A DNA stretch of 46,836 nt from Anaerolineales bacterium (GTDB lineage: Bacteria; Chloroflexota; Anaerolineae; Anaerolineales; Villigracilaceae), in contig JACZJC010000058.1 in assembly GCA_014860745.1 (NCBI GenBank), forward strand, positions 1 to 46,836, written 5' to 3'. The notes beneath the pieces were generated by a model. It did no database searches. It was not told the origin of the DNA and was given only the letters and a program-made list of their open reading frames with translations. The translations under genes were made by a program, and so were the position numbers. This document shows positions 35,591 to 43,111 of the stretch, piece after piece. Within the stretch, counting starts at the first letter, position 1, and each line of letters opens with the position of its first letter.

Positions 35591-38473
35591 TTACACCAAC
35601 TCCACCCTGACAGCCGTCACCTTGTACGATGGGATCTTTGACACAGGGTCGAGTGAGGCGTGCGTCAGTTCATTCGCTGAAGCCTCAGGGAAGTGGAAGT
35701 TCGCATAAACCATGCCGGGCGGCACACGGTCTGTCACCCAGGCCTGGGCTTCGATGCTTCCCCGCCGCGAGGTGATACGCAGGATGTTCCTGCCGTTCAC
35801 TCCAAGCTTTTCAGCATCGTCGGGGTTCAATTCCACAAGCGCCTCGCCGTACACCTGCATGATACCCTCCGCGCGGCGCGTCATCTGCCCGCCATGCCAG
35901 TGATACAACACGCGTCCCGTGCTCATTACCATCGGGTACTCATCATCGGGTCGTTCGGCAGGCGGCACATGGTCAATCGGCATGAATTTGCCCTTGCCGC
36001 GCGTAAATTGCTTGGTATGCAAGATTGGCGTACCGGGGTGGTCGGCTGTTGGGCAGGGCCATTGCAATCGCTCGCCTGCTTCCAACCGTGCGTGGGTGAT
36101 ACCGCCATAGGATGGTGTCAAAGCGTTTATCTCGGACATGATCTCGGAGGTGTTGGAATACTCCCAGCCCGCATGCGGCGCATCTTTCCGGACCCGGTCA
36201 CTGATTCGGGCCAACAACTTTTTCGCCAACTGCGAGAGGATCCACCAATCGGGTTTCGAGTCGCCGAGCGGCTCAATGGCTTGACGTACTATCTGCACGC
36301 GGCGTTCGGTGTTGGTAAATGTGCCCGTCTTCTCTGCAAAGGATGAACCGGGCAGCAAAACATCTGCGTATGCGGCAGTTTCCGACGGGAAGATTTCCTG
36401 CAAAACGAGAAAATCCACCGACGACAGGCACTTACGGATGTGGTTCGTGTCAGGGTCAGACATCACCGGGTCTTCACCAATAATATATAACGATTTGATC
36501 TTGCCATCAAGAATGCCGGGTATCATTTCGGTAACCGTCAAACCGACCTTGTCGGAAAGGATGAAGGATGAAGGAGAAAGGCTGAATTCTTCATCTTTCA
36601 TCCTTCCTAATTCATCCTTTGTTCTCAGACCCCATGCCTTTGCAAATTTCTCGCGGGCTTCTTCGCTTGTCACAGGCTGATATGCCGTGTACACATTTGG
36701 CAGGCCGCCCATATCACAAGCACCTTGCACGTTGTTCTGTCCACGCAGTGGGTTGACTCCGCCACCGGGTTTGCCCATGTTGCCCAACAGCATTTGCAGG
36801 TTGGCGAGATCCATCACGTTGCGAACCCCGACAATATGCTGGGTGATGCCCATCGCCCACAGAACAGCCGTCGGCTTGGAAGAGGCGATGATCTCTGCCG
36901 CTTCGTAAAGCTGTTCCACGGGGATGTTCGTGGTCTCCGATACTTTATCTGGCGGATATTGCATCACGGTGGCTTTGAACTCATCAAAGTTTTCTGTGCG
37001 TTCGTCAATGAAGGATTGATCCTGCCATCCTTTTTCGAGGATTATGTACATCAGGCCGTTGAGCAGGGAGATATCCGTGCCGGGGCGGTGACGGAGATGC
37101 AGGGTTGCGATTTCAGTAATATCTATTTTGCGCGGGTCTGCCACCACCAGCTTCGCACTGCGATACCTTACTGCGCGCCTCAGCATTGTCCCAAAGACCG
37201 GATGCTGCTCGGTGGTATTCGAACCGATGATGAAAAACGCTTTTGCTTCGTTTGCCACATCGTCCATTGAATTGGACATTGCTCCAGAACCGAAGGAGGC
37301 GGCCAGACCGGCCACCGTGCTGGAGTGTCAGAGACGGGCGCAGTGGTCGATGTTGTTCGTTCCTATGACCTGCCGCGCCAGTTTGTTCATCAAATAATTT
37401 TCTTCATTCAGGCATTTTGCCGAAGTCAGGAAACCCATCGTGTCCGCGCCGAAATTGGTTCGGGTGTCTGTTAATTTATCCGCGATGATGTCGAGGGCTT
37501 TGTCCCATTCGGTTTCGACCCAATCCCAAGGAGAACCGAAATTCGATAATTCGACCTTCGACTTTTGACTGTCGACTATCGAATTTCGAATATCGCTTTT
37601 CTTTTTTCCTTCCAACAAATATCGTCTCACCTTTGGCTTTGTGAGCCTGTCGGGATGATGAATGAAATCGTAACCGTAGCGTCCTTTCACGCACAAAGCC
37701 ATCCCATTCACCGGTGCGTCCGGGTTGGATGATACGCCGATGACTTTGTTATTTTTCACCAGCAAGTCAAACTGACAACCCACACCGCAGTACGAGCATG
37801 TTGTGGTAACTTTTTTAACCTGATGTGCCCGCCCCATGCCGTAATTCATCTTGTTGGATAGTGCGCCTGTCGGACAGTACGCCACACATTGCCCGCAGGA
37901 CTCGCACCTCGCCTCTAACAATGGGACGCCTGCTCCCGCCACGATGACTTCTTCAAACCCGCGCTTTGCCACGCCCCAGACATCGCGGCCCTGAATCTCC
38001 GCACAGGCTAATTCGCAGCGGCGGCACAGGATGCATTTGTTCATGTCCACGCGGATAAAGGGATTGGGATCACTGTCAACCGGGTAGCGCGTACCTTTCG
38101 CGCCCCAGTCTGGTACCTTGGCCTGATATTCATATGCCAGGTCCTGCAATTCACACTCCCCCGACACATCACAGATCAGGCAGTCTACCGGGTGGTTTGC
38201 CAGCATGAGCTCGAGAGTCAGCTTACGATCTTTCATCACCTTTTCGCTGGATGTTTCAATTTCCATTCCCTCCCAAACCGGAGTGACACACGCCGCCTGA
38301 AGGAAGCGCCCGCCCTTTACTTCCACAATACACATACGGCAATTTCCAGTGGGGTTCAAATCCTTGTGATAACAAAGCGTTGGAATGTGAATATCGTGTT
38401 CCTTCGCAACTTGCAAAACAGTTTTGCCTGATTCTGCCTGTATCTCTTTACCGTTGATCTTTAGGTTAATCAT
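35591..38473 (-). CDS. Selenocysteine-containing NAD-type formate dehydrogenase, catalytic subunit
   Basis: A 960-residue molybdenum/tungsten enzyme, formate to CO2. Order: [2Fe-2S] ferredoxin-like N-terminus (Cys35, 45, 48), NuoG-type His/Cys Fe-S region (HPVDCLICD), two [4Fe-4S] clusters (CILCRRCELAC, CESCGQCVAYC), a third near CSYCGVGC, then the molybdopterin domains to the end. Sec382 is encoded by TGA 37328-37330 in HCARL-U-HSSTVAGLA, the formate dehydrogenase active site. Two in-frame repeat inserts lie at residues ~291-313 and ~618-641. It follows the NuoEF-like subunit by 17 bp. Reading it as a broken gene is the alternative, and less likely. Confidence 0.9.
36556..36620 (-). repeat. 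In-frame palindromic element (GGATGAA type) in the formate dehydrogenase gene
   Basis: Terminal 10-bp perfect inverted repeats (36556-36565 with 36611-36620) bound GGATGAA-type units. The element is translated as part of GRMKDEEFSLSPSSFILS, an extra peptide between AWGLR and KVGLTVTEM, where relatives run straight on. Confidence 0.6.
37282..37330 (-). promoter_or_regulatory. Selenocysteine codon and SECIS-like hairpin
   Basis: After TGA (37328-37330) the mRNA folds with an outer stem 37320-37325 to 37282-37287 and an apical stem 37310-37316 to 37298-37304 closed by a GGUCU loop. The GGUC comes 18 nt after the UGA. As I recall, the Escherichia coli fdhF SECIS has the same GGUCU apex at the same spacing. 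Confidence 0.8.
37537..37588 (-). repeat. In-frame palindromic element (TCGAATTTCG type) in the formate dehydrogenase gene
   Basis: A perfect 12-bp inverted repeat, CGAAATTCGATA (37537-37548) with TATCGAATTTCG (37577-37588), encloses GTCGA/TCGAC-rich sequence. It is translated as NSIVDSQKSKVELSNFG in a linker of the catalytic subunit. Confidence 0.6.
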
Positions 38474-38483
38474 TGGTCACCTC

Positions 38484-38502
38484 AAAACGTTTAACGTTGA
38501 AC
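38484..38502 (-). repeat. AACGTT-type repeat at the 3' end of the NuoEF-like gene
   Basis: AAAACGTTTAACGTTGAAC supplies the last codons (NVQR, stop) of the beta subunit and the start of the intergenic gap; it looks like a short dispersed repeat. Confidence 0.35.
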
Positions 38503-40245
38503 ATTATTTTCCGCTTTCGTAAATTCCGCGCCAAAATGAGTCAACGCTGATTTCATGGGGATCGCCACGCTTTGACCCAGCCCGCAGAAGGAAGAATCCT
38601 GCATCAATTCGGCCAGAGTTTTCAATTCGTCCAAATCGCCTTTTTGCCCTTTTCCAGCTGCCAGGTGTTTTAGGGTTTCAAGTGAGCGCCATGTGCCGAC
38701 ACGGCAGGGAGTGCATTTTCCACAGGACTCAATCGCAAAGAAATGCAAAAGTTCGCGCAGCATGGTGACAGGGGAAACACTTTGGTCGCAGATCAGGAAG
38801 GAGCCTGCGCCGAGTGAAATTCCTTTTTGCCCCGACGAAAAATCGATTGGCACATCCAGCAGGGATTCATCCACGATCGTTCCTGCCGCGCCGCCGCACA
38901 ACGCGAATTTGAACGCCGAGTCATCCGCCATCCCACCGCCAAATTCCTCGATGATCTGGCGCAAGGTCAAGCCAAACGGCGCTTCGAACAAGCCTGGATT
39001 TTTTACATGCCCCAGCACCATGTACATTTTTGTGCCGGGTGTTGCATAGGTTGAAAGCGACTTCCACCACTCCGCGCCGTTTTTCAGAATATGCGGAACG
39101 GCGCAGAATGACTCAACATTGTTCACTGTGGTGGGCTGCCCGCGGAATCCATAGGTAGGCGGGTAGGGCGGACGCAGCCTCGGCTCGCCGCGTTTGCCTT
39201 CCAGCGACTCGATCAATGCCGTCTCTTCGCCGCAGATGTACGCCCCCGCGCCGCGATGGACATGGATATTGAAAGAAAAATCTGTTCCAGAAATATTTTC
39301 ACCCAAAAGGTGTTTTGCTTTCGCCTGCTCGATGGCTTTTTCCAGCCGCCGCGCTTGATATTCATATTCCCCGCGGATGTAGATCCACGCTTCGGACGCG
39401 CCGCAAGCGTATCCTGCAATCGTCATGCCTTCAATCAGCTGATGCGGATTCGTATCGATCAACACGCGGTCCTTGAAAATGAGCGGCTCGGATTCGTCCG
39501 CATTGCAGATAATGTAACGGGGAGTCCGTTTTTCGCTGGCAACGAAGCGCCATTTTCTGCCGACGGGAAATCCCGCGCCGCCGCGTCCCTGCAAGCCGGA
39601 AGATTCCACTTCGGAGAGAACAGTTCCGGGGTCGGTTTGAAGCGCTTTTTTTAATCCGTCGTACACGCCGTTCGCGAGTGCGTCCTCAATCGAGTCGGGA
39701 TCGATCTTTCCAATCAGCGATGTCATCACGCGGACTTCACCTTTGCGGACTTCGCTGAAATCCGTCTGCACGCCGCGCCAGCCTTCGCAAACTTTGTTCG
39801 CTTCGTTCGCTTCCACAGGACCCGCCTGTTCATCCTCCACCAGAACTGCGGGAGCGCGGTCGCACAATCCCAAACATGAAGTTCGTTCTACACTGAACTC
39901 ACCGCCAATTTTATTTTGCCATTCACTGACCAACTGGTCACTGTTCACTGGTGACTGTCCATTGGCTCTCTTCAACCAGCACACGGGACCATCGCACACG
40001 CGCAGGACTTTTTTACGCTCCTCGAGCGAGAGCATGGAATAAAACGTTGCCATGCCATACAATTGATGGGGAGGGAGTTTGAGCGCGCGGGCGGCGTCAG
40101 TGATGGAGGTGGGTGTCAGCACCGAGTGATGCGTTTGGATCTCCTTCAACAACTCCAGTGCGGCTTCCGGTTCGTTGCCGTGTTCCCGTGCAAGCTCTTC
40201 GATCTCAGGTGAAATGGGACGGTATATGATTTTTTTATTGGTCAT
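38491..40245 (-). CDS. Formate dehydrogenase NADH-binding subunit (NuoE-NuoF fusion)
   Basis: A 584-residue fusion. Residues 1-~150 are NuoE-like with [2Fe-2S] ligands CDGPVC and CLGLC. The rest is NuoF-like: GRGGAGFPVGRKW (NADH), ICNADESEP (FMN), HRGAGAYICGEETALIESLEG, and C-terminal ESCGKCTPCRVGT for a [4Fe-4S] cluster. It passes electrons from the catalytic subunit to NAD+. I start at ATG 40245 with GGAG upstream; TTG 40263 is an alternative. A repeat-derived insert (ANGQSPVNSDQLVSEWQ) interrupts the NuoE-like part between its two Cys pairs. Confidence 0.9.
   Translation of the reverse strand: MTNKKIIYRPISPEIEELAREHGNEPEAALELLKEIQTHHSVLTPTSITDAARALKLPPHQLYGMATFYSMLSLEERKKVLRVCDGPVCWLKRANGQSPVNSDQLVSEWQNKIGGEFSVERTSCLGLCDRAPAVLVEDEQAGPVEANEANKVCEGWRGVQTDFSEVRKGEVRVMTSLIGKIDPDSIEDALANGVYDGLKKALQTDPGTVLSEVESSGLQGRGGAGFPVGRKWRFVASEKRTPRYIICNADESEPLIFKDRVLIDTNPHQLIEGMTIAGYACGASEAWIYIRGEYEYQARRLEKAIEQAKAKHLLGENISGTDFSFNIHVHRGAGAYICGEETALIESLEGKRGEPRLRPPYPPTYGFRGQPTTVNNVESFCAVPHILKNGAEWWKSLSTYATPGTKMYMVLGHVKNPGLFEAPFGLTLRQIIEEFGGGMADDSAFKFALCGGAAGTIVDESLLDVPIDFSSGQKGISLGAGSFLICDQSVSPVTMLRELLHFFAIESCGKCTPCRVGTWRSLETLKHLAAGKGQKGDLDELKTLAELMQDSSFCGLGQSVAIPMKSALTHFGAEFTKAENNVQR
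39919..39965 (-). repeat. In-frame repetitive insert (CAGTGA type) in the NuoEF-like gene
   Basis: Units of CAGTGAACAGTGACCAGT-type sequence are read in frame between CWLKR and NKIGGEF, in the NuoE-like part. Composition and position resemble the two inserts in the neighbouring catalytic-subunit gene. Confidence 0.5.
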
Positions 40246-40335
40246 ACTTTTGCTCCATTGCAATTATTCCTTATTGTGTGAATTTTGGTAAGTTTCATTG
40301 CTCATGCTTTGATGGGATGATTATCCCTGTATTTA

Positions 40336-40409: not shown

Positions 40410-41183
40410 TTATAATCCCACTCTTTTTCCATTTGAATACACATTGAAGCGGTGCTTCCTCGCATAACCGATCAACGTTATTCCATATCGCTCCGCCATC
40501 TCGATCGAAAGCGATGATGGGGAGGTGCGTGAGATCAAAATGGGTGCGTTCAACGCGGCGGCTTTTTGCAGCATCTCGGAGCTGATGCGCCCCGTAGTGA
40601 TGAGAATGCGATTTTCAGGCCAGATATTTTTCATCAAACACAAGCCCGCAATTTTATCGAGTGTGTTGTGGCGGCCAATATCATCCGCGGCGACCAACAC
40701 TTTTTCACCATCACTCAAGGCAGAAGTATGCACTCCGCCCGTATCGCGATAAAGTTCCTGTGACTCGAATAACTTGTCGACCAGTTCCATAATCGCCTCA
40801 GGCTGGACCTGGAGCCTGTTCTCTCCAAAATTAACATTCGGCTTCGCGAGCAGGTCAACTGCTGTCACGCCGCCCGTGCAACCCGATGTCCTACGCCAGT
40901 TCATCGGCTGCTCCACATCGTGATCCAGCCACACATCCACATTATCGCCGTGCTCGCAGACTCGCACATCTGCGACTTCATCCATGCTTCGGATGATGCC
41001 TTCATTAAACAGGAATCCCACAGACAAGGCCTCCAAATGGATGGGCGTGCACATGAACGTGATCCACACGCTGCCATTCACGGTCAGCGAAACGGGAGTC
41101 TCGACGATGGTTTCAGCGTCGTGATGTTCCCATTTCTTAAATTCATATCTATCATATTCGATTATTTTTCGCGGAGAGATCAT
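40410..41183 (-). CDS. fdhD: Formate dehydrogenase accessory sulfurtransferase
   Basis: A 257-residue FdhD, which carries sulfur to the molybdenum cofactor of formate dehydrogenase, needed for activity. VGFLFNEGII, DIGRHNTLDK and LITTGRISSEM are family signatures. The usual CxxC of the Escherichia coli protein is here SGCTGG, with one cysteine only (Cys102). I start at ATG 41183 with AGAGG upstream. It is encoded just upstream of its client operon but ends in its own terminator. Confidence 0.93.
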   Translation of the reverse strand: MISPRKIIEYDRYEFKKWEHHDAETIVETPVSLTVNGSVWITFMCTPIHLEALSVGFLFNEGIIRSMDEVADVRVCEHGDNVDVWLDHDVEQPMNWRRTSGCTGGVTAVDLLAKPNVNFGENRLQVQPEAIMELVDKLFESQELYRDTGGVHTSALSDGEKVLVAADDIGRHNTLDKIAGLCLMKNIWPENRILITTGRISSEMLQKAAALNAPILISRTSPSSLSIEMAERYGITLIGYARKHRFNVYSNGKRVGL

Positions 41184-41212
41184 TTCAACCTCTAAGTGAG
41201 AGTATCTGAAAA

Positions 41213-41272
41213 GTAGGGACACAGCGGGTACTTTTGGGATTTTGACGATAGTTTGTCATGCTGTGTCCCTAC
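41213..41272. repeat. 13-bp inverted repeat with 34-bp spacer upstream of fdhD
   Basis: GTAGGGACACAGC (41213-41225) and GCTGTGTCCCTAC (41260-41272) are perfect inverted copies. It lies between the DUF402 stop and the fdhD start, so it may end the former transcript or be a small mobile repeat. Confidence 0.65.
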
Positions 41273-41307: not shown

Positions 41308-41928
41308 CTAAATCTCTTCCCAATTTGCCGGTAATTTGGGAAGTGTCCAGTTTGGGTCTGGCCGCCAGTTCAGCCAGGAATTATCAAATGGATATTCGCG
41401 CCTTTCAAGTCTATCAAGGATTTCGCTTTTTGCGGTTTCGATTTCATTCACCCATTCTGGCAGGATGACCCCTGTTTCAATGCCCTTTTCGTAATCGTCC
41501 AAATCCTTCCACTCGAAGGAAAAATCGGGATTGACAATAATATCCAGGTCCAAATCCAAAGTGTCAACACTGCAATGGTTTCGCTTGAACGGAAGCTGGA
41601 AGTTTATGTAATAGCACAGGAATTCATTGCGGGCATCGTTCCAGAAAAATATCGGCGAATAGAATTTTTTAGGTTCAAGGATGATTAGAAGACGGTTGGT
41701 ATGCCAGGTAAAATTTTCGAGTTTCCAGTCCTCTGTTTGGTAATCCCAGCGGCGTTTGCCATTCTTCTTGCCTTTTGGATATTGCTCTTCCACCATACAT
41801 TCGGCCCCGGGGAAAATTGCCAATATAGTTTCCTGTGGTGCATCTTTTACAACTATGGTTGACATGGCGTGCCAGATGCGTTCTCTATAAATGCCCCTCC
41901 ATGTAACGATCTCACCGGGTTTCCACAT
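41308..41928 (-). CDS. DUF402 domain protein
   Basis: A 206-residue protein with the DUF402 pattern: WYINFQLPFKR-like strand (CYYINFQLPFKRN), then DTLDLDLDIIVNPD and WKDLDDYEKGIETGVI. Related proteins hydrolyse nucleoside di/triphosphates with a metal bound by such acidic residues; the substrate here is unknown. It is the last gene of an overlapping four-gene operon; its start lies within the end of the YHS-like gene (17-nt overlap). Confidence 0.85.
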   Translation of the reverse strand: MWKPGEIVTWRGIYRERIWHAMSTIVVKDAPQETILAIFPGAECMVEEQYPKGKKNGKRRWDYQTEDWKLENFTWHTNRLLIILEPKKFYSPIFFWNDARNEFLCYYINFQLPFKRNHCSVDTLDLDLDIIVNPDFSFEWKDLDDYEKGIETGVILPEWVNEIETAKSEILDRLERREYPFDNSWLNWRPDPNWTLPKLPANWEEI

Positions 41929-42139
41929 GTGCTTTAGGTTTCTCCGAATTTCGATGCACTTTGCAAAAAAGATCAGTGTCGGCTAAAAAAGCGCCCAAGC
42001 AGGCATCCGTGCAAAGGATAATCCTCCGCCCACGATATTCGGCAGACGGAAAATACTGCGGGTCGGCGTTGCGGAAGATGCGTCCGCATAGTGTGGCGAA
42101 TACCCTTGGCCTTGGTTTTACGGCTGGAATTTTATTCAT
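41912..42139 (-). CDS. Small YHS/TRASH-like metal-binding protein
   Basis: A 75-residue protein. Cys18, then after 24 residues Cys43 and Cys47 (IILCTDACLGAFLADTDLF), resemble YHS/TRASH domains, where a Cys pair after an aromatic strand binds metal and xxCLxAFxADPxxF follows. The start ATG overlaps the cytochrome b5-like stop as ATGAATAA, and its end overlaps the DUF402 start, so coupling on both sides supports a real gene. Short and not confirmed by search. Confidence 0.6.
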   Translation of the reverse strand: MNKIPAVKPRPRVFATLCGRIFRNADPQYFPSAEYRGRRIILCTDACLGAFLADTDLFCKVHRNSEKPKAHVETR

Positions 42140-42383
42140 TAACCAACCTGCCGACAATTTTTACACAATCGTGGTTGAAAACTTCTTCATGGTGCGGAGC
42201 CTCGGGCAGTTCGGTGGTCAGATCCTGCCCGGGAAAATGCAGGTTTTCATGCAAGTCCAGCCGCCATTTTGGGCAGTCGGTAACATCGTATACGATGCCG
42301 TTGAAGGCGACAAATTTTCGCGCGCCACGCTCGCCTGTGCTGCGTTTAAGCTCCGCTGCGGTGACAGTTCTTTTGGAAATCAT
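42132..42383 (-). CDS. Cytochrome b5-like heme-binding domain protein
   Basis: An 83-residue single-domain protein. FVAFNGIVYDVTDCPKWRLDLHENLHFPGQDLT is the layout of bacterial stand-alone b5 domains, broken here for length: FNGIVYDVTDC, then HENLHFPGQDL with the first candidate heme His, and PEAPHHEEVF with the second. The standard HPGG is replaced by HFPG. Its start overlaps the membrane-protein stop by 4 nt (ATGA). Confidence 0.82.
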   Translation of the reverse strand: MISKRTVTAAELKRSTGERGARKFVAFNGIVYDVTDCPKWRLDLHENLHFPGQDLTTELPEAPHHEEVFNHDCVKIVGRLVNE

Positions 42384-43111
42384 GATGCTTTTAGCGTAAG
42401 TCCTTCGGGAAGATAGTGCTTGATATATTCCAACAGGGAATAAATGATCAGAGAGCAGCCGAACATCTCTACTGATTCTTCGAGACTGGCAACGACGGCG
42501 TAGGTATAGTTCTTCTGCCCAAGGTTGGCGGCGAAATATCCGCTGACCATTTCGCCGCCAATCACGCCGCTGATGTAAACGGCAAGGGAAACGAAAAAGA
42601 GAACTTTGAACTTTCTATCGAGGTGGAGGAAGAACATCAGAAAGATCAGCCCGAAGAGCGCAACGGCGATCATTCCGGGGATGACCCATGCAAAATGGAA
42701 CACACCGCCCGCATCCACGAAATTGCGCATGGGCTTGATCAGCCGTTCATGCAGGACGGCGGCTTCATCGAAGGAAAGGAGGAGGAAGATCAGAGCCAGC
42801 CCGACCCAGTGGAAGCGGAATTTATCCATGATGGTGTTTTTCCATGCGCCGATGAAGAAAAGAAGAAGCGCAGGAATGAATAACAGCAGCGCATTTGCGA
42901 ATGTGGGGATGTTGCCTTCCGCATCAAGATAGAAAGCCGATATGAGCAGGTCGAGCAGGAATTCGTGCCAGTATCCGCGGATATCGGCCACACCGAAAAA
43001 CCTGACCTTTTGCCCATAAATACTCAACCCGACCAGCGCCGCAACGATTGCAAGCAGGAAGAGCAGGATATATTTTGAGTTAAGTTTGATAGTGATGTTT
43101 TTATTTTCCAT
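42380..43111 (-). CDS. Unrecognised six-helix membrane protein with conserved-looking acidic/His motifs
   Basis: A 243-residue protein with about six hydrophobic helices. SFDEAAVLHERL (about 119-130) and ASLEESVEMFG near the last helix put Glu, Asp and His in or beside membranes, as in metal- or heme-linked proteins. I do not recognise the family. It heads an overlapping operon with a b5-like protein, a YHS-like protein and DUF402, so a heme or redox role is a reasonable guess, no more. Confidence 0.7.
   Translation of the reverse strand: MENKNITIKLNSKYILLFLLAIVAALVGLSIYGQKVRFFGVADIRGYWHEFLLDLLISAFYLDAEGNIPTFANALLLFIPALLLFFIGAWKNTIMDKFRFHWVGLALIFLLLSFDEAAVLHERLIKPMRNFVDAGGVFHFAWVIPGMIAVALFGLIFLMFFLHLDRKFKVLFFVSLAVYISGVIGGEMVSGYFAANLGQKNYTYAVVASLEESVEMFGCSLIIYSLLEYIKHYLPEGLTLKAS

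Follow-up and report, generated by a model that had tools for sequence, protein, structure and literature searches.

Four overlapping genes upstream of fdhD in an Anaerolineales genome: probably one version of an older neighbourhood beside the formate dehydrogenase locus

On the minus strand of a 46,836-nucleotide contig from an Anaerolineales bacterium, hereinafter called the window over its whole length, a membrane protein gene, a cytochrome b5-like gene, a YHS-like gene and a DUF402 gene run into one another. Do the four products work as one machine, or is the row a local form of something wider? A first-pass annotation had assumed the former and proposed a heme- or metal-linked membrane redox module. 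Our analysis favours the latter. Specifically, the four genes are probably one genome's version of an older neighbourhood beside the formate dehydrogenase locus, with translation-coupled pairs and no four-part machine. As a four-part machine, the finding would be ordinary.

Coordinates, junctions and constraint

The four genes, from the first to the last, are as follows.

42380..43111, minus strand: membrane protein gene, 243 residues; first of the four genes
42132..42383, minus strand: cytochrome b5-like gene, 83 residues; soluble, without HPGG, matching 6nzx and 6vz6
41912..42139, minus strand: YHS-like Cys protein gene, 75 residues; conserved, under purifying selection
41308..41928, minus strand: DUF402 gene, 206 residues; candidate FomD/SC4828-like hydrolase, Pfam 39 bits

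The overlaps in the window are those annotated previously, namely 4 nt (membrane/b5), 8 nt (b5/YHS) and 17 nt (YHS/DUF402). The additional statement that all four start codons lie inside the preceding gene is true of three; the membrane gene is the first in the row. The 4-nt membrane/b5 junction is kept in all 14 loci of the overlap comparison, which represent 13 distinct loci because L073 is the same contig as L061. It is likewise kept in all 16 fdhD loci that carry both genes, a set that overlaps the former, and reads ATGA in 15 of them and TTGA in one (G061). The 17-nt YHS/DUF402 junction is kept in six of eight loci, while the 8-nt b5/YHS junction is present in the window and L063 only and is not conserved.

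All four genes are under purifying selection, with dN of 0.11–0.33 and dS ranging from 0.97 to saturated in 25 comparisons of the window with relatives (seven relatives for the membrane, b5 and YHS genes, four for the DUF402 gene). A simple gene caller made no call for the 75-residue ORF. Its dN is 0.13–0.30 between the window and relatives, far below dS, and we therefore reject the possibility that it is spurious; it is conserved among relatives and constrained at the protein level, as the first-pass annotation required. The close relatives belong to Chloroflexota, four of eight being named Anaerolineales. That the four-gene locus is an accident of a single genome was also rejected, because the locus is common to relatives.

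Predicted properties of the four proteins

The b5-like protein matches 6nzx (E 5.8e-13) and 6vz6 (E 1.5e-9) in the PDB. Three histidines, H45, H49 and H64, are invariant among 15 sequences, and all three align with His in both structures. 6NZX is described as the 8.6 kDa soluble domain of a cytochrome b5 of a Hadesarchaea archaeon (PMC7096707). The HPGG motif is absent, as had been claimed. Because the matching proteins 6nzx and 6vz6 lack HPGG as well, its absence does not argue against heme, and heme binding is plausible by analogy with relatives of solved structure. The protein falls just below the gathering score of Pfam Cyt-b5 (23.0 vs 23.7 bits), and the Pfam Cyt-b5 model run against the whole genome gave no match at E 0.001. 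Homologues in other families have other neighbours: across 18 b5 regions from outside the host family, not one gave a match to the profiles of the other genes. In five regions outside the host family (L250, L254, L255, L256 and L262), the b5-like gene lies between DUF1786-like and DUF554-like genes, which were assigned by reading and checked against Pfam in L250.

The YHS-like protein itself is far below the cut-off of Pfam YHS (PF04945; 13.2 vs 30.3 bits). It is homologous (E 2.8e-9) to C30, another protein of the window's genome, which is encoded at L058 and passes Pfam YHS; the paralogues at L058 and L054 score 33.1 and 29.3 bits, respectively, against the cut-off of 30.3. C18, C43 and C47 are invariant among 18 sequences, and a helix follows the Cys pattern in the predicted model (pLDDT 72.1). 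A fold search with this model returned nothing at E 0.001 or better, and the family profile gave weak matches only among PDB sequences. Judged by its sequence, the protein is a divergent YHS relative.

The paralogues have a setting of their own. By eye, seven of 12 YHS paralogue loci have cupredoxin-type gene neighbours, including that of the window's genome (L058). A recurring cassette with variable parts, consisting of a P-type ATPase fragment, methyltransferase, cupredoxin, small membrane protein, YHS and DoxX, was recognized by reading at L049, L050, L054, L055, L056, L057 and L058; Pfam checks in two of these confirmed cupredoxin and DoxX for L054, and for L058 a YHS score above the cut-off. 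Because the paralogues sit in such cupredoxin strings, copper would be the first candidate metal for the fdhD-linked protein by kinship. Together with the conserved Cys residues, this setting makes metal binding plausible by analogy. Papers that mention YHS along with formate dehydrogenase count YHS proteins among the selenoprotein families.

The DUF402 protein is over the Pfam cut-off (39 vs 23.9 bits). Residues 2–204 match 3cbt, the phosphatase SC4828, with E 9e-20, and the protein also matches 5zdm (FomD) with E 1e-12. It is below the NCBIfam equivalog cut-offs for FomD (104.4 vs 320) and NtdP (34.1 vs 280).

The membrane protein is predicted by AlphaFold2 (pLDDT 68.6, weak at residues 120–145) and by hydropathy to contain six long hydrophobic helices, with a further helix that is short. 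E116, H121, E211, E212 and E215 are invariant among 19 sequences with identities down to 27%, and E65, D115 and E187 are conserved at 90% or more. All of these residues except E65 are within predicted helices; a buried site for a metal or for protons may reasonably be supposed. No Pfam or NCBIfam family is over its cut-off, with one sub-threshold match per scan, and the same scans of all 19 sequences gave weak single-member matches, nothing more. The family profile found weak matches only among PDB sequences, and Foldseek returned no match to the model at E 0.001 or better. Rhodopsins top the VIA fold list, with Z up to 9.3, a range common for helical bundles. In microbial rhodopsins, the Lys that binds retinal is located halfway along the last helix. 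The last helix of the membrane protein (202–233) has no mid-helix Lys; its sole Lys, K231, is near the end and not conserved. By sequence criteria, the protein represents a family not described before, in which Glu, Asp and His residues are conserved. With eight invariant or near-invariant acidic or His residues and no Pfam or NCBIfam family over cut-off, this family deserves a name.

The membrane gene adjoins b5 in 19 of the 32 host-family genomes that have it (presence at E 1e-10, adjacency counted by eye), and all 19 are in the window's genus. It was therefore rejected as a defining part of any unit. In 20 class-level membrane-gene regions, among which G019 is represented twice and G350 three times, tblastn at E 1e-3 did not find b5, YHS, DUF402 or FdhD of the window; in one of the regions, L107, it did not re-find the membrane gene itself. 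By eye, no neighbour is constant among the membrane homologues. Tandem pairs of the family lie away from b5 in two genomes of the genus (L074 6160-7625 and L075 5669-7208). G408, which belongs to another genus, has a membrane-gene fragment of 50 residues directly upstream of fdhD, at the end of a contig and with no b5.

The formate dehydrogenase locus and gene order in the host family

Downstream of the four genes are the following features.

41213..41272, no strand assigned: 13-bp inverted repeat between the DUF402 gene and fdhD; TTTT after it on the minus strand
40410..41222, minus strand: fdhD, PF02634 with 242.5 bits, for an accessory protein in maturation of the formate dehydrogenase cofactor; the start may be the ATG at 41183
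38491..40263, minus strand: NuoE/NuoF-like subunit gene, by reading presumably of an NAD-linked formate dehydrogenase; homologues also stand beside fdhD elsewhere
35591..38473, minus strand: gene that we take, by reading, to be fdhA, formate dehydrogenase alpha; one in-frame TGA, residue 382, CARL-U-HSS

The TGA of fdhA is at the selenocysteine position, and the gene appears as two ORFs when read with table 11. A SECIS_3 candidate at 37275-37333 covers this TGA but reaches 32.3 bits where the gathering score is 63. The genome contains a tRNA-Sec with 68.5 bits against a cut-off of 47; the same search also exceeded the cut-off in five of 14 control genomes and fell short of it in the others. 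Among the fdhD loci of the host family, the selenocysteine motif was found in 39 of 92, with TGA in 36, the window being one of these, and TGC in three. The 13-bp repeat is perfect and occurs three times in exact form across the genome; it could thus be either a terminator or a dispersed repeat.

We surveyed 5 kb upstream of fdhD, on the same strand, at 92 loci from 91 host-family genomes; G490 and G445, in which fdhD is fragmentary, were left out, and G462 contributes two loci. Upstream sequence extends to at least 3.5 kb in 69 of the 92 loci and is shorter in the rest. The b5 gene is upstream of fdhD at 55 loci, YHS at 53 (five of a distant type), a GH13 sugar hydrolase gene at 37, and the membrane gene at 17. 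DUF402 is patchy, with 17 loci as well. None of the five is upstream at 25 loci. All four genes of the window occur together at five loci (G000, which is the window, G327, G382, G493 and G486), four of which have GH13 too, and the set is contiguous in the window only. The first-pass condition that the genes adjoin one another elsewhere is thus borne out in part, but the four genes are not the lasting unit. Away from the surveyed fdhD loci, all four also occur at L070 (G345) and L062, with GH13 between. The membrane gene, b5 and YHS occur without GH13 and DUF402 at seven more fdhD loci. Where both b5 and YHS are present, GH13 lies between them in 26 of 45 fdhD loci, with fdhD next. The GH13 protein is alpha-glucosidase-like (Pfam Alpha-amylase, 425.6 bits for one sequence), and the best match in the window's genome is 52% over 206 residues, not a close copy.

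Presence across 130 genomes of the host family agrees with a b5–YHS association. An fdhD match is present in 93 genomes (92 over the cut-off), b5 in 86, the membrane gene in 32 and the close YHS type in 54, the close type being cut at 92.9 bits or more, because the next score down is 76.6 bits. Seventy-four genomes have both b5 and fdhD, 12 have b5 without fdhD and 19 have fdhD without b5; b5 is at most 5 kb upstream of fdhD in 56, and 12 of the 37 genomes without fdhD retain it. The close YHS type occurs in 54 of 93 genomes with an fdhD match vs none of 37 without one, a comparison for which Fisher values ignore kinship. One of the 54 is G445, whose fdhD fragment is below the cut-off and is counted among the 93. 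Close YHS is just upstream of fdhD in 49 of its 54 genomes and has b5 at most 3 kb upstream in 51. Co-occurrence, which had been suggested as a check on the four families, is seen for b5 and close YHS; the membrane/b5 join is confined to one genus, and DUF402 is patchy.

The pair can also stand apart from fdhD. In G345 and G481, where the sole fdhD belongs to a very distant type and is located elsewhere, the membrane gene, b5 and YHS are still together; these cases indicate that the b5–YHS pair is not bound to a local fdhD. In G495 the pair is also apart from its fdhD. G314 lacks both fdhD and YHS, and b5 adjoins DUF402, which lies between b5 and hypA. At L263 4015-5190, in a genome without an fdhD match, b5, DUF402 and the nickel-insertion gene hypA are in a row. 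These separations weigh against the explanation favoured here, as do the 12 genomes that have b5 but no fdhD, the sub-threshold fdhD of G445 and the membrane-gene fragment of G408.

Alternative readings, proposed explanation and known systems

The explanations considered here overlap in part, and their probabilities do not add to one. In a tree of 92 fdhD sequences, whose deep branches have low support in part, the arrangement is found mostly in one broad clade. Adjacency of b5 is also found on a separate branch (G430/G462/G436), and adjacency of the distant-type YHS on another (G407/G412/G423). The deep linkage looks old, yet alone it cannot prove a shared job, because GH13 adjacency to fdhD is as deep in the tree as b5/YHS adjacency. 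It is quite conceivable, if not our expectation, that an ancestral gene order has survived by chance among genes with no shared job. GH13, without an evident link to formate dehydrogenase, is linked to fdhD equally well, so shared inheritance could suffice, and the changing neighbours of b5 homologues in other families and of membrane homologues (the latter by eye) are consistent with this. Chance survival accounts less well for the confinement of close YHS to genomes with an fdhD match (54 of 54, 51 of them beside b5), the retention of the 4-nt and 17-nt overlaps, and the persistence of the b5–YHS pair away from fdhD (G345, G481 and G495).

Persistence of the pair without a local fdhD, and the cupredoxin-type neighbours at seven of 12 paralogue loci, some with a P-type ATPase fragment or DoxX, would also suit a small metal or heme unit formed by b5 and YHS themselves, for example to handle copper or oxygen, with no dependence on formate dehydrogenase. 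We consider such independence unlikely, as none of the 37 genomes that lack an fdhD match has close YHS. That all four proteins make up a dedicated membrane redox module, linked to heme or metal, is improbable: the genes do overlap, with 4 nt between membrane gene and b5 in 16 of 16 fdhD loci with both, and acidic and His residues are conserved in predicted helices of the membrane protein, but all four genes are together at five of 92 fdhD loci and contiguous at one, the membrane gene is missing at 39 of 55 b5 loci and 38 of 53 YHS loci, and 20 class-level membrane-gene regions are without a partner by tblastn. Because the four genes are so rarely together, and the class-level membrane regions and the outside b5 regions lack partners, a four-part membrane redox complex is unlikely. 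What survives of the redox module of the first-pass annotation is that the b5-like and YHS-like proteins travel together; as a dedicated four-protein module it is weakly supported at best.

We therefore return to an older neighbourhood beside the formate dehydrogenase locus. The window probably contains the upstream end of an Anaerolineales fdhD/formate dehydrogenase locus, with b5-like, GH13, YHS-like and fdhD as the ancestral order in the family. The YHS gene would have gained a DUF402 gene as neighbour, and b5, within a single genus, the membrane gene via the 4-nt overlap. GH13 was most likely lost in the window, a presumed rather than reconstructed loss that would have left the four genes contiguous. 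The overlaps would couple translation in pairs, membrane with b5 and YHS with DUF402. Judging from relatives of solved structure, the b5-like protein is most likely a soluble bis-His heme electron carrier; from its paralogues in cupredoxin cassettes, the YHS-like protein is most likely a small Cys metal binder for copper or zinc; and from FomD/SC4828, the DUF402 protein is most likely a metal-dependent hydrolase of nucleotides or nucleotide conjugates.

Because b5 and YHS are the genes most lastingly tied to each other and to fdhD, any job they share would be that of accessories in formate dehydrogenase maturation or protection. The cofactor of formate dehydrogenase receives sulfur from FdhD. 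The heme protein and the Cys protein, both conserved and encoded beside fdhD, are direct candidates for helping or protecting this step. One report ties the active-site sulfido ligand to activity and oxygen sensitivity (PMC12140954). A role of b5 and YHS in maturation is possible, and the sugar hydrolase is equally linked. A specific form of this role is a long shot, namely that b5 and YHS are undescribed maturation or guard factors for a selenium-molybdenum formate dehydrogenase: YHS would keep copper or another thiophilic metal from the FdhD-bound cofactor sulfur, or deliver metal to it, b5 would supply or remove an electron, and a new family of membrane proteins, carrying a buried acidic/His site, would be coupled to them within a single genus. 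In PubMed Central we found no paper that brings together any two of YHS domain, cytochrome b5 and DUF402, none that treats Anaerolineae with formate dehydrogenase and fdhD, and none on the present combination of genes.

Several parts of the locus have described counterparts. The DUF402 protein shares Pfam DUF402 and the 3cbt match with the FomD/SC4828/NtdP hydrolases, but it is under the NCBIfam equivalog cut-offs for FomD and NtdP. With the YHS domain (PF04945), the YHS-like protein has in common the C-x24-C-x3-C pattern, the following helix and a paralogue that passes Pfam, although its own score is far under the cut-off. The b5-like protein resembles the HPGG-less soluble cytochromes b5 6NZX and 6VZ6 in length, in sequence and in the three His positions; unlike theirs, its gene stands beside fdhD. 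Lastly, the window has the same fdhD, NuoEF-like gene, fdhA and selenocysteine TGA as FdhD-linked formate dehydrogenase loci, to which it adds the b5, YHS, DUF402 and membrane genes upstream, and its relatives GH13 as well.
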